From Planctomycetaceae bacterium TMED10 (lineage in GTDB: Bacteria > Planctomycetota > Planctomycetia > Pirellulales > UBA7805), in NCBI GenBank assembly GCA_002168195.1, contig NHBP01000094.1, positions 1 through 13,531 of the forward strand: a stretch of DNA of 13,531 nucleotides, in the 5' to 3' direction. Made by a program: the position numbers and the translations under genes. Position 1 is the first letter of the stretch. Every line of letters begins with the position of its first letter. The notes under the pieces are model-generated. The model saw only the letters and a list, made by a program, of their open reading frames with translations, ran no database searches and was not told the DNA's origin. Below, piece by piece: positions 7,789 to 13,531 of this stretch.

Positions 7789-9261
7789 TCACCGAAGCGA
7801 TTCAGGCGGCCGAGAAACGCGAAGCAAATTCTCTAGTCCCTCTGAAGTAATGGAGCTCCCTTGATGTTCGATAACACGAAGGTTTTTTAGCTCTGATAGA
7901 TACATCAGACCTCGATCACTGATTGGCGTGTTCGATAAACCGACACCGACCAAAGCATCCAAGTCACTCAAAGCACGAAGGTCTTCGTCTATGAGATCAC
8001 AGTCGGCCAACTGAATCTGTTCTAAATTAGGAAGTCCTTTTAAGTAGCGTAAAACAGCACCATTAAATTTTTTCGGGTCAAATTCGACCGCGTAAACAGC
8101 ACCGCCACTCTCCCGTGCTAACATTTTTGCCCCATATCTTTGCAGATTAAAGATACTGACCGGATCGCATAAAAATACTCCTTTCACTTCCGTTGGTGAG
8201 TTGCGTGAAAATTCTATTTTAGAAATCTTCAGAGGGATATTTTTTGATCCCATTACAAAAAATTGGTCGCTCGACCAGGGACGGCGATCCGTCACGTGTA
8301 GTTTGTCACCAGCATTCGACATCTTTTTAAAAATTGCGTGAAAGTGTCGTTGCTCCCTCGGAAAGGGGACGCCCAAATATTCCTCATCGCCAAGTATTTG
8401 CCTGCCATTTTTCGTCGTCATCGCAGCCCGTGGCATATTTCCCGAGTAAAGCACGAACGCTAGGCCGCGATCGACCCAACCACCGTAAAACCCCACAGGC
8501 AGCAACAAACATCCAGCAACAACAACGCGACCCCACCTTGTTGCAGGAATGCTCGCGGTTGCATTCCAAAATAATGCGAAACCGACAATGGCTGTTGCCA
8601 AATTCCAGGGGATAACCGACGCATTAAAATCGAAAAACAAAGGCGACATAAATAGCGCAATTCCTCCGTGAAGCACGACGCAAAGAATTGCCCCCAGACG
8701 GGGCCGAAGCACCGCTGCAATACCCAAAATAATTTCGGCAATCGCAAGAACCCAGGAGACAAAATGGTAGAAATTATCCGCATCAAACTGACTGCGCTCA
8801 AGAATGTTCCAGGCAATCATCGGCCATTCTGGTGAGAATATTTTATGTGTGCCCGCCCAGAACCACATGGCGATTAAATACCACCTACAATAATTTTGCC
8901 TCTGCGTCGTGCTACAACCAAAAATGAGTATTGAGATTGATAAAAATTGTGGCTGGATACGGTACTGGTCTGCAAGGCAGGCAATTGCCAATACCACAAT
9001 ATGAATCACCGCTCCGCGCCGTGGATCAATGAGCACATAAATCAACGACACAAGAACGACTGCGCCAAAAGATATCCACGGACCGTCGATCAGAGGAAGA
9101 TTGATTGAATATTCTCGAACCTGCCAGAGACGCCACGTCAGCACCACAGTGATCGTTTGTGCCAATACGCAAAGTAAGAGTAGGCTGTACCACTGACGAT
9201 CAATCTGGAAGGCGCCCCATCTAGCCCGAGAAGCGTTTGAAATATTTTTTCTTTCGCTCAT
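7789..9261 (-). CDS. Polytopic membrane protein with C-terminal leucine-rich repeats, function unknown
   Basis: The protein has 490 residues from ATG 9261; a GTG three codons earlier (9270) is an equal alternative, since neither has a clear ribosome site. Residues about 22-262 hold roughly seven or eight membrane helices, including a conserved-looking WYLIAMWFWAGTHKIFSPEW segment (127-146) and a helix pair at about 165-208. This pattern is loosely reminiscent of DoxX/MauE- or HTTM-type membrane domains, but I cannot assign one. After a hydrophilic stretch (about 275-400), residues about 403-480 form three leucine-rich repeats of the LxxLxxLxL type: LKGLPNLEQIQL, LSDLDALVGVGL and LSELKNLRVIEH, each followed by an I/L-S/D-D/E-GL-type return. 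Such LRRs are protein-interaction modules and common in Planctomycetes. It lies 62 bases downstream of the DUF1499 gene and is probably cotranscribed. Confidence 0.8.
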   Translation of the reverse strand: MSERKNISNASRARWGAFQIDRQWYSLLLLCVLAQTITVVLTWRLWQVREYSINLPLIDGPWISFGAVVLVSLIYVLIDPRRGAVIHIVVLAIACLADQYRIQPQFLSISILIFGCSTTQRQNYCRWYLIAMWFWAGTHKIFSPEWPMIAWNILERSQFDADNFYHFVSWVLAIAEIILGIAAVLRPRLGAILCVVLHGGIALFMSPLFFDFNASVIPWNLATAIVGFALFWNATASIPATRWGRVVVAGCLLLPVGFYGGWVDRGLAFVLYSGNMPRAAMTTKNGRQILGDEEYLGVPFPREQRHFHAIFKKMSNAGDKLHVTDRRPWSSDQFFVMGSKNIPLKISKIEFSRNSPTEVKGVFLCDPVSIFNLQRYGAKMLARESGGAVYAVEFDPKKFNGAVLRYLKGLPNLEQIQLADCDLIDEDLRALSDLDALVGVGLSNTPISDRGLMYLSELKNLRVIEHQGSSITSEGLENLLRVSRPPESLR

Positions 9262-9323
9262 TAAATTCACGGGTAATGGATAGACGAAATGTTACAAATC
9301 TGTTCGCCAAAGAGATCGCATTT

Positions 9324-11092: not shown

Positions 11093-11557
11093 GTGACTGA
11101 ACCTAACTCCTGTGAAAAAATTGGTGTGATCATCGTGGATCACGGTTCGCGGCGGGATGAAAGCAATCAAATGCTTTTAGGGATTGTCGATGCGTTTCGG
11201 CAGTCTAGCGCATATGCGATCGTGGAAGCAGCGCATATGGAACTTGCCGAACCATGTATCGCTACCGCCTATAATGCCTGTGTCCAGCAGGGAGCGACAT
11301 TGATTGTCGTCCACCCTTTTTTTCTTCTTCCGGGACGACACTGGGATAGCGATATTCCGCGGTTGGCCGCCGAAGCGGCTGCGGGGCACCCTCAGACATC
11401 GTATCTGGTCACCGCGCCGCTGGGCTCCCATCCTCTCATGGCGCAAGTCATCGATGAGAGAATTGCAGGATGCCTGAGTCACGGTCGAGGGGAGGCGCCG
11501 GATTGTTCTCTTTGTGAAAACACCGACAAGTGTACCCTTCTGAAAGCTGAAGTCTAA
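11093..11557 (+). CDS. cbiX: CbiX-type sirohydrochlorin chelatase (cobalto/ferrochelatase) with C-terminal Cys cluster
   Basis: This 154-residue single-domain protein belongs to the small CbiX/SirB class that inserts Co2+ or Fe2+ into sirohydrochlorin for cobalamin or siroheme synthesis. The N-terminal VDHGSR (His17) and the HPFFLLPGRHWDSDIP segment (His74, His83) are the family metal-binding and catalytic regions. Residues 138-147 give C-x2-C-x5-C (CSLCENTDKC); some CbiX proteins carry a C-terminal Fe-S-binding cysteine motif, and this could be a variant. It starts with GTG at 11093 and has no strong ribosome site, yet no usable ATG exists before the DHGSR motif. The metal (Co or Fe) cannot be told from sequence. 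It lies 51 bases after the DUF1559 gene, and its TAA overlaps the stop of the convergent channel gene by four bases. Confidence 0.88.
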   Translation: MTEPNSCEKIGVIIVDHGSRRDESNQMLLGIVDAFRQSSAYAIVEAAHMELAEPCIATAYNACVQQGATLIVVHPFFLLPGRHWDSDIPRLAAEAAAGHPQTSYLVTAPLGSHPLMAQVIDERIAGCLSHGRGEAPDCSLCENTDKCTLLKAEV

Positions 11558-12861
11558 GATAAAGTTTCAGTATCGAAGCTCTTGTCAATTTGACGGAGTA
11601 CAAAGTCGGCAGCCTCCGCTTGCCGCGCTACGCGTGGTGAGGCTACTAATCGATATTCATCCTCGATCAGCGTACGATCACCGTTTGAATCTGGGTCTCG
11701 AAAAACAACCGCTACGAAAAGAACTCCATCGAGTTCTGGTGGCGCATCCGGTCCGAGATGTCCGGTCACGGCGGCGGCAAGTGAGGCCTCGGGGGTTTCG
11801 GACAAGACAGCGATTGCCATCGCATGCGTTATTTCACGGCTCACGGATGAAAATTTGTCCAACCCAGTCGCGGATATACCGAGCCATTCTCGCTTGGTTA
11901 AGTCACGATAACTCACCATCGAGCCACACAAAACATCTGAGGCACCCGCAATCGAAGTGAGACGAGCCGCCACTAGACCACCGGTGCAACTTTCCGCCAG
12001 TGCCAACCGCAACTGTCGTCGTCGCAATTTTTCCACGATCAGTTGAACCGCACTCGGACTTTTACCGCTGCCCGGTTCAGAACGTATTTCCTGCAAAAAT
12101 CTCGCGTATCTGCCCGTATCGTCGAGCGATGTTGCGGTCGCTTCGCTTTCTTCTCTTTCAAAATTCTGCGCCTGACTCAGGGCCGATGTCACAATTGCAG
12201 CAGGAACTGCGACGATTCCAATTCCCACCATCAGGACAACGACTGTAAACAAACGGCCACCTATCGTGACCGGATAGATATCACCGTAGCCGACCGTGGT
12301 GAGAGTAATCACGGACCACCAGAGGCTATGAAAAACGGAGACAAATTTTTCGGGTTGCGCATCGCGCTCAAAGTAATAGATTCCGACCGCAGCGATAAAC
12401 AGTAGGATTCCTGTAATCGAAAAGAAAAGAGCAATCTGTTCCTTCGAAAGCAAAAAGGCTCGATGAAAACGCTGAATCGCTCGGCTGTAGCGACCCAATT
12501 TGAGAATTTGAAAGATATGTACGAGGCGAATTGCGCGAAGCCCCCGCAAATCGACACCCATTTGTACGTAAAAAGGCAGAATCGACATCAAATCAATCAG
12601 GCCAAAAAAACTAAAAACATATCTTGCTTTATTAGGAGCAGCAAGCAAGCGGATCGCATATTCGATCGTAAAGAGTACAATCACCGCGAACTGCTCCCAC
12701 CACAAAAATGCTTTTAGTTTGGGTGGAATATTTGGCGTGGTAGAGAGCGCAAACGAAAACAAGGAAACAAGAATCAAAATCTGGACCGCCACCGCAAAAC
12801 CGCGACCTACGGATGTATTCGGATTCGTTATGAGCCGACAAATTTCGCGATGGGAGTGCAT
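11554..12861 (-). CDS. Voltage-gated K+ channel fused to CinA C-terminal / PncC (NMN deamidase) domain
   Basis: This 435-residue protein has two unrelated parts. Residues about 20-230 are a six-helix voltage-gated channel: S4 carries regularly spaced Arg/Lys (LRGLRAIRLVHIFQILKLGR, 105-124), the pore helix is SLWWSVITL, the K+ filter is TTVGYGD (188-194), and S6 is at about 204-227. A Glu/Thr-rich linker with no membrane segment follows (232-268). Residues about 270-425 are a CinA C-terminal domain: AESCTGGL (289-296), SMVSYRDLTKREWLGI (314-329) and AAVTGHLGP (363-371). That domain is the NMN deamidase PncC, which turns NMN into nicotinic acid mononucleotide. Ser291, Tyr318 and Lys323 fall where the family's catalytic Ser, Tyr and Lys sit, so activity is plausible. 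TGAGGT stands eight bases before the ATG at 12861. The frame is unbroken between the two parts. Both domain assignments are firm; their functional link is inference. Confidence 0.92.
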   Translation of the reverse strand: MHSHREICRLITNPNTSVGRGFAVAVQILILVSLFSFALSTTPNIPPKLKAFLWWEQFAVIVLFTIEYAIRLLAAPNKARYVFSFFGLIDLMSILPFYVQMGVDLRGLRAIRLVHIFQILKLGRYSRAIQRFHRAFLLSKEQIALFFSITGILLFIAAVGIYYFERDAQPEKFVSVFHSLWWSVITLTTVGYGDIYPVTIGGRLFTVVVLMVGIGIVAVPAAIVTSALSQAQNFEREESEATATSLDDTGRYARFLQEIRSEPGSGKSPSAVQLIVEKLRRRQLRLALAESCTGGLVAARLTSIAGASDVLCGSMVSYRDLTKREWLGISATGLDKFSSVSREITHAMAIAVLSETPEASLAAAVTGHLGPDAPPELDGVLFVAVVFRDPDSNGDRTLIEDEYRLVASPRVARQAEAADFVLRQIDKSFDTETLS

Positions 12862-13055: not shown

Positions 13056-13174
13056 TGCAGAAGGTATGCCATGGTGGCCCCGGGCAACCTCAGCCCCTGA
13101 ACCGGTGTAATCTCAATCGCAACGTCAAAGGGCAAACAAGGACAAACCGGGTGCGCAGACAAAATGCGACATTG

Positions 13175-13207
13175 TTCTGATCGAGTTCTGATCGGGTTCC
13201 GATCGAC
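13175..13207. repeat. Three 11-bp tandem repeats abutting the channel stop codon
   Basis: Units at 13175-13185 (TTCTGATCGAG), 13186-13196 (TTCTGATCGGG) and 13197-13207 (TTCCGATCGAC) match at 8 or more of 11 positions, all sharing the GATCG core. The third unit ends on the base before the TAG of the partial channel gene. The period is close to one helical turn. Confidence 0.65.
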
Positions 13208-13531
13208 CTATGCCGCTTCCCGTTGTGGCTTAAGGTGGGTCACGAAATCCAGCACTTCCGCACTCTCTTCCATATTGTCCGCTTTTGTTTCAGCCGATGA
13301 ATCGCTTGGCAAACCACCCTCCTCTCCCTCCAGATTACGAGCCTGACTGAGGGCTGAAGTGACGATTGCCGCAGGCACCGCCACAATACCGATACCCACC
13401 ATTAGTACCGCGACTGTAAAAAAACGGCCACCAATTGTGACTGGATAAATATCGCCGTACCCAACGGTAGTCAAGGTAATCACCGCCCACCAGAGACTGT
13501 GAAATATAGACGCAAATTTTTCAGGCTGCGT
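13208..13531 (-). CDS. K+ channel paralogue, C-terminal fragment (gene continues past right edge)
   Basis: 107 codons plus a stop are visible; the start lies beyond the window. The fragment begins TQPEKFASIFHSLWWAVITL, carries the TTVGYGDIYPV filter (21-31) and an S6 helix with VGIGIVAVPAAIVTSAL (45-61), then a 44-residue hydrophilic acidic tail ending QREAA. Over the 70 residues from QPEK to EGEE it matches 62 of 70 residues of the neighbouring channel-PncC protein, and no CinA domain follows. The two genes therefore look like a tandem duplication in which only one copy has (or kept) the enzyme domain. The frame is intact, so this is a partial gene by window edge, not a pseudogene. It lies upstream of the fused gene on the same strand, 346 bases away. 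Confidence 0.92.
   Translation of the reverse strand, partial: TQPEKFASIFHSLWWAVITLTTVGYGDIYPVTIGGRFFTVAVLMVGIGIVAVPAAIVTSALSQARNLEGEEGGLPSDSSAETKADNMEESAEVLDFVTHLKPQREAA

Follow-up and report, generated by a model that had tools for sequence, protein, structure and literature searches.

A Kv-type channel and a PncC/CinA domain in one predicted planctomycete polypeptide

The window, as the whole stretch of DNA analysed here is called, comprises 13,531 nucleotides of contig NHBP01000094.1 from Planctomycetaceae bacterium TMED10 (assembly GCA_002168195.1; the genome, G000 below, is 96.95% complete with 7.38% estimated contamination). One gene on its reverse strand joins a channel of the voltage-gated potassium (Kv) type and a PncC/CinA domain in a single frame. 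Its product is read here, tentatively and with a little less than even confidence, as a bacterial channel-enzyme, in which a catalytically equipped pyridine-nucleotide amidase is carried on a Kv-type channel and its occupancy would alter gating. An earlier note, made from the letters of this sequence, had proposed the architecture and a possible gating by nicotinamide mononucleotide (NMN) or another pyridine nucleotide.

The fused gene and its domains

The unbroken frame described in the earlier note was recovered: it starts with ATG and runs through 435 codons, with zero internal stops, to a stop codon at 11554-11556, and there is no ambiguous base within the window. Its parts are as follows.

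11554..12861, reverse strand: fused gene (copy B), Kv-type channel plus PncC/CinA domain, 435 amino acids (single open frame; Pfam and NCBIfam matches; fused relatives P0001, P0002, P0003 and P0005)
12166..12798, reverse strand: channel domain, residues 22-232 (PF00520, 1.9e-32; PDB matches)
12490..12546, reverse strand: S4, residues 106-124 (alignment to Kv1.3; comparison with fused and plain rows)
12280..12300, reverse strand: selectivity filter TTVGYGD, residues 188-194 (translation)
12058..12165, reverse strand: linker, residues 233-268 (alignment of fused rows)
11557..12057, reverse strand: PncC/CinA domain, residues 269-435 (PF02464 on 273-389, TIGR00199 on 276-392; alignment of 127 + 114 rows)
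11893..11991, reverse strand: Ser291 (11989-11991) to Lys323 (11893-11895), with Cys292, Ser308 and Tyr318 (mapped on S31, C32, S48, Y58 and K63 of AtCinA, PMC5384747)

Profile searches, which the earlier note had named as a check, matched both parts well above the cut-offs: with Pfam, Ion_trans on residues 22-232 (112.8 bits, cut-off 25, profile positions 4-237 of 241), Ion_trans_2 on residues 153-229 (64.7 bits, cut-off 22.5) and CinA, PF02464 (1.5e-27, 96.6 bits, cut-off 23.5); with NCBIfam, the PncC_domain model TIGR00199 (84.5 bits, cut-off 68.9). The motifs it had read are likewise all present in the translation, with AESCTGG at 289-295, Y318-x4-K323 and AVTG at 364-367 beside the filter. 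No MocF/COG1058 domain appears among the Pfam matches of the fused protein, whose N-terminal half is Ion_trans, and none of these matches is to a T1 domain. Past residue 240 no 19-residue stretch is strongly hydrophobic (maximum 1.27), so that the enzyme half should be cytosolic, in line with the usual topology of such channels.

No description of a fusion between a K+ channel and CinA/PncC was found in the literature searched (open-licence PMC papers, in part judged by title among the hits listed). The CinA domain is said to be occasionally fused with other domains, which are left unnamed in the accessible part of PMC3855486. The bare architecture could have been noticed in a database earlier.

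Fused relatives and origin of the fusion

The whole protein was searched against 5.8 billion clustered proteins, which gave 2178 matches among 8000 scored candidates, the best 120 being considered. Among these 120, at least four other protein clusters carry both domains (54 member sequences, 5 contigs): P0001 (97% identical, 30 member sequences), P0002 (73%, 5 sequences), P0003 (71%, 16 sequences) and the partial P0005 (73%, 3 sequences). A search with the CinA part (proteins of about 239-761 residues) added no further channel fusion among the best 120 of 624 matches. The linker has the same length, without insertion or deletion, in the window protein and in all four fused relatives. Identity to P0002 amounts to 184/232 residues in the channel and 113/167 in the enzyme, both of which look to be under constraint, and to 19/36 in the linker, the least conserved part.

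A tree of 36 channel rows, built by maximum likelihood, unites the fused channels and a frame-broken relative, P0004, in one clade (100/100) of two lineages; a single fusion event is likely, since the fused channels are held in this one clade. The tree of 38 CinA rows groups the fused domains and P0240, a domain predicted alone, less firmly (91/88). Copy A, the plain channel in tandem with the fused copy B, groups with the channel of the congener G005 (94/97) and not with the fused clade; copies A and B are the sole Ion_trans matches in G000.

The family sample consisted of 10 genomes, 6 of them of this genus (G000 and five congeners, G005-G009). In G005, G006 and G007 the channel and CinA are separate neighbouring genes on one strand, the channel stop and the CinA start overlapping as ATGA in G005 and G007 and being separated by 37 bases in G006. 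Where they overlap, the two genes lie in different frames, and no slippery site for a programmed frameshift was seen by eye in the short ATGA junctions. G008 (82% complete) gave only a weak channel match, and its CinA, at another place in the genome, is of a different, two-domain type; both channel and CinA are missing from G009 (70% complete). The earlier note had allowed that homologues might always be encoded as two proteins; this does not hold as worded in view of the fused clusters, yet separate adjacent genes are indeed what three of the five congeners carry.

Genes common to G000, G005 and G006 around the locus are DUF1499, DUF1559, CbiX, CinA, the channel, a YbaK-like gene (tRNA_edit), and LepA-like and ROK-like genes (annotated with Pfam on the G000 members and the CbiX of G005 only, LepA and ROK being named by eye); UPF0047 was grouped in G000, G005 and G007 and recognised by eye in G006. 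In G001, from another genus, CinA has UPF0047-, LepA- and ROK-like genes in its vicinity but no channel, and the channel therefore probably came to the CinA locus later.

These data also bear on the earlier note's own reservation, that a frameshift or an assembly error had joined two genes. The estimated contamination of G000 and the two genes carried by three congeners would agree with such an artefact, but fused sequences occur in other records and the neighbourhood is the same as in G005 and G006, which marks the contig as native; an assembly artefact was ruled out on these grounds, and an assembly or sequencing error as the source of the fusion is held to be extremely improbable.

The proposed course of events would begin in the genus ancestor, where a plain Kv-type K+ channel gene would have landed directly upstream of the resident PncC-like gene and become translationally coupled to it, a state that the ATGA overlap of two living congeners may preserve. 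In one lineage the channel would then have been duplicated in tandem, copy A staying plain and copy B being fused in frame, once, to the PncC-like gene.

The enzyme and channel halves

The nearest PDB entries of the enzyme half are 2A9S and other CinA/PncC entries. In AtCinA the catalytic dyad consists of S31 and K63, the oxyanion is held by the backbone amides of C32 and G106, Y58, R145 and the S48 of the partner subunit bind the phosphate, and T105 contributes; the pocket is built from two subunits, and the turnover number (kcat) is 8.7 per s (PMC5384747); in TtCinA the product phosphate is bound by R377 and Y296 (PMC4246079). The equivalents of AtCinA S31, C32, S48, Y58, K63, T105, G106 and R145 are S291, C292, S308, Y318, K323, T366, G367 and R410, the last as placed by MAFFT in a region of variable sequence where R413 is equally conserved. 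All eight (seven probed by mutation in AtCinA, PMC5384747, and G106 as the eighth compared) are kept in the window protein, P0001, P0002, P0003 and P0005, that is in 5/5 fused rows, and in 124 of the 127 rows of the subfamily defined below; P0307 and the short P0323 (131 amino acids) and P0338 (127 amino acids) miss some. The fused domain looks able to work as a PncC-like amidase, and NMN is its probable substrate.

It is also the sole PF02464 match in G000, a second PncC elsewhere having been looked for with this profile and not obtained, and is probably the single enzyme of the PncC kind in the genome, a kind that recycles a product of the breakdown of nicotinamide adenine dinucleotide (NAD). 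Across the family sample, nine of ten genomes have exactly one PF02464 match and the tenth has zero. The single match is weak (26-39 bits) in G008, G003, G002 and G004 (L065-L068) and lies in frames of 418-445 codons that look MocF-CinA-like by eye and lack AESCTGG, so that an inactive PncC part may be present there. In G000 the adenylation domain of NAD-dependent ligase is matched once, and NadD twice over cut-off; a source of NMN (the ligase) and a user of nicotinic acid mononucleotide (NaMN; NadD) are likely present.

A degenerate, binding-only PncC domain had been the main alternative of the earlier note, and it has lost ground, since the seven mutation-probed residues and G106, and with them the catalytic and phosphate-binding positions, are all present. 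In this alternative the domain would gate the channel in the manner of TRPM2, by binding a pyridine nucleotide without relevant turnover. It has a precedent in the NUDT9-H domain of TRPM2, a C-terminal domain that descends from an enzyme and acts in gating though it does not catalyse (PMC4974056), and the substrate-facing block is altered; however, the eight mapped residues are kept throughout the fused rows, and a loss of catalysis would leave the genome without any such enzyme that a PF02464 search could find. It is regarded as quite improbable.

The substrate-facing block itself deserves description. Most enzymes carry (S/T)G(I/V)AGPxGG as block P-VI (PMC3855486), whereas the fused domain, where AVTG continues into this block, reads TGHLGPDAP, with H368, L369 and D378 standing for the canonical I/V, A and V (D378 for the Val of KPVG). 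H368 and D378 occur together in 127/127 subfamily rows and in 0/114 canonical rows (TGHLGP...DG), both sets being picked by sequence, as the best matches of two protein searches. At the Asn60 position of YxNxxK (block P-III) the fused domain has D320; the canonical rows have Asp in 33/114 and Asn in 79/114.

The TGHLGP rows (P0121, residues 366-379, and 126 relatives) form a PncC subfamily distinct from canonical CinA/PncC, in which His368 and Asp378 are invariant and which is common in planctomycete genomes; no statement on its substrate was found in the literature, and the fused protein brings this subfamily to light. In other organisms, P0122 and P0123 have a TGHLGP-type PncC domain fused to a CTP_transf_like nucleotidyltransferase, a superfamily that includes NadD. 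This partner fits work on nicotinate or nicotinamide nucleotides, and the two proteins possibly hold PncC plus a NadD-like step within one chain. The 397-codon frame at G559:C331:14528-15031 may be guessed, by length alone, to be of the same type.

Compared with the NMN deamidases of the PncC/CinA family (AtCinA 2A9S, TtCinA 4UOC, E. coli YgaD), the fused domain is alike in scoring over the TIGR00199 cut-off and in its Ser/Lys dyad, Tyr, Arg and GxS block. It differs in having TGHLGPxAP...DG where they have TG(I/V)AGPxGG...KPVG, and in being fused to a channel where they stand alone or behind COG1058/MocF. The COG1058/MocF-CinA enzymes and P0122/P0123 resemble it in that PncC is joined to another domain, but their partner is a soluble enzyme.

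The channel half has chains of Kv1, Kv4 and Kv2 as its nearest PDB sequences and also matches prokaryotic entries labelled 'voltage-gated potassium channel'. The filter TVGYGD is intact (residues 189-194), TTVGYGD being the K+ selectivity filter motif. A hydropathy scan resolved S1, S2, S3, S5 and S6 and did not separate S4, so that the six-helix assignment is taken from the Ion_trans match. S4 is regular and basic with reduced charge (R106, R109, R112, H115, Q118, K121, R124), H115 and Q118 occupying the R3 and R4 positions of the Shaker numbering in an alignment to Kv1.3. The six helices with S4 arginines proposed earlier are retained as far as the Ion_trans match and the basic S4 are concerned, with His at R3 and Gln at R4 as exceptions. 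The fused protein shares Ion_trans, a basic S4 and TVGYGD with Kv-type channels (Kv1.3, Kv4, Kv2; prokaryotic) and differs from them in these two residues, the His being a trait of the fused clade, in having no T1 Pfam match and in its enzymatic C-terminus.

Position 115 is His in 4/4 fused rows covering the site (P0005 starts later) and Arg in 14/14 plain rows; the residues specific to the fused clade and absent from the 14 plain relatives also include G123 in S4, Q57, S183, and Q232 at the S6 end. The changes at H115, G123 and Q232 fit a channel that changed along with the fusion. Its voltage sensing may persist on the reduced charge.

Gating, tethering and distribution

The protein would be a membrane channel with an amidase on its cytoplasmic C-terminus, most likely converting NMN to NaMN. 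Since the known PncC pocket requires two subunits, a homotetramer would have its four enzyme domains paired as a dimer of dimers; alternatively, copies A and B would mix, giving one PncC dimer per channel. Substrate occupancy would then shift channel gating, as pyridine nucleotides on Kv-beta alter the gating of Kv1 (PMC9317154). In Kv1/Kv-beta as in the fused protein, an enzyme for pyridine nucleotides sits at the cytoplasmic side of a Kv channel; Kv-beta, however, is an aldo-keto reductase in a chain of its own that binds T1, and not a fused amidase.

Channel-enzymes, of which TRPM7 and TRPM6 are examples, are to our knowledge known mainly from animals. Together with TRPM2 they resemble the fused protein in having a channel and a C-terminal cytosolic enzyme-family domain in one chain, and differ from it in that the latter has a bacterial Kv-type pore and an amidase, not a Nudix or kinase domain. 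TRPM2 is tied to NAD metabolites, one of which is also its ligand, and proved not to be an enzyme, its Nudix box not supporting catalysis (PMC4974056), whereas the catalytic residues are retained in the fused protein.

Several observations weigh against the channel-enzyme reading as a whole. The enzyme is a protein of its own in the congeners and so can do its work there with no physical tether. A linker so weakly conserved gives no argument for a close mechanical coupling. The departure of the substrate-facing block from canonical PncC means that the substrate may differ from NMN, and the active lineages are described with Asn60 (PMC3855486), at which position the fused domain has D320. Ratios of non-synonymous to synonymous substitution rates (dN/dS) of 0.06-0.08 for the fused channel and of 0.14-0.29, where computable, for the fused CinA are weak evidence and bear out nothing beyond purifying selection, as synonymous sites were near saturation and 3/8 pairs were not computable.

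To these are added two close relatives. In P0004 (1 member sequence, with 94% identity across the channel) the frame is lost within the linker and the protein is only 273 amino acids long, and P0240 (93% identical, 7 member sequences) is a CinA predicted alone, of 160 amino acids; in the window, the second frame that matches the break of P0004 stops two bases before a GTG in the CinA frame, where P0240 begins. A close relative may thus make two proteins again, or these records may contain sequencing errors. Fused and split forms may also coexist in close relatives. Finally, no other fusion in one frame was seen among the matches listed in genome surveys of the order (396 genomes), the class (397) and the phylum (392), which are overlapping sets with at most 4 candidates scored per genome.

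The strongest rival is tethering without gating, in which the fusion, succeeding a translational coupling, would fix the amidase at the membrane in a one-to-one dose with the channel and without mutual influence. The ATGA overlap in two congeners, the poorly conserved linker, the sufficiency of separate proteins in the congeners and the existence of the frame-broken allele P0004 all speak for it. Tethering alone, however, needs neither the exact linker length kept in both fused lineages nor the S4 and S6-end changes common to the fused channels, and this explanation is considered somewhat unlikely. A near-neutral accident, by which a frame change joined overlapping or adjacent genes whose products keep their own functions under a bond without a role, is clearly improbable: the overlap of the congener genes in different frames means that a small indel could fuse them, and frame-broken or split forms exist at 93-94% identity, but the fused state persists, with unchanged linker length, in two lineages at 71-73% identity.

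The channel-enzyme reading can be extended to a first bacterial K+ channel with an active NMN amidase, in which NMN derived from the ligase or from NAD turnover would gate the pore through paired PncC domains and then be removed, resetting the channel, A2B2 mixing being possible. This extension is viewed as rather unlikely; if it were true, K+ conductance would report DNA repair or NAD turnover. The protein is a clean system (small and bacterial, with intact active-site residues, an adjoining plain paralogue and living two-gene relatives) in which it can be asked whether an enzyme-channel fusion creates a metabolite-gated pore, and which also allows a test of NMN as a bacterial signal.

The earlier note had suggested a survey of this architecture in Planctomycetes. 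Fused clusters were seen in the protein search and none among the matches listed in the genomes of the order, class and phylum; these surveys do not prove the absence of the fusion outside the genus. Neighbouring channel and CinA genes were not seen by eye outside the genus among the matches listed, and where a close channel (>45% identity) was listed together with a CinA match, in 21 genomes, the two lie far apart on one contig (7) or on different contigs (14). Ten channel matches were picked by eye (L092-L101) for extending to residues 252-312 or for lying in long frames; in the 3-5 kb surrounding each of them, neither a tblastn match to CinA nor one of its motifs was found. Conversely, the surroundings of 14 standalone CinA loci (about 6 kb on each side) held no channel frame, and no NAD gene was recognised by eye among their recurring families; in 5/14 of these loci the picking of open reading frames dropped the CinA frame under a longer overlapping one. 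A scan of genome contigs gave 15 loci, one (L016) in the two-gene form and none fused, the window's own genome being possibly excluded, and no relative was found in viral contigs.

Two genes adjoin the fused gene in the window.

13208..13531, reverse strand: copy A, plain tandem channel directly upstream of the fused gene, 3' part (the gene extends past the window to G000:C30 ~14029; 64% identical to the copy B channel; no CinA)
11093..11557, forward strand: CbiX gene, convergent, conserved neighbour (4 bases shared with the end of the fused gene)

The overlap with CbiX covers 11554-11557, the last four bases of the fused gene. No remnant of a CinA was found in the 346-base gap after copy A (best tblastn E value 4.4). 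Directly after the stop of copy A, at 13174-13205 on the reverse strand, short direct repeats of the type CGATCAGAAC were read by eye, and the 5' part of copy A beyond the window contains scattered N. Scans for regulatory sites, which were not used as evidence, gave 1 promoter-like site (shuffle mean 1.5) and 6 terminator-like sites (shuffle mean 2.9), all of the latter within copy A or B. Further along the window, 7789-9270 on the reverse strand encodes a protein of 493 amino acids with a MauE-like membrane domain and, by eye, a leucine-rich-repeat-like C-terminus.

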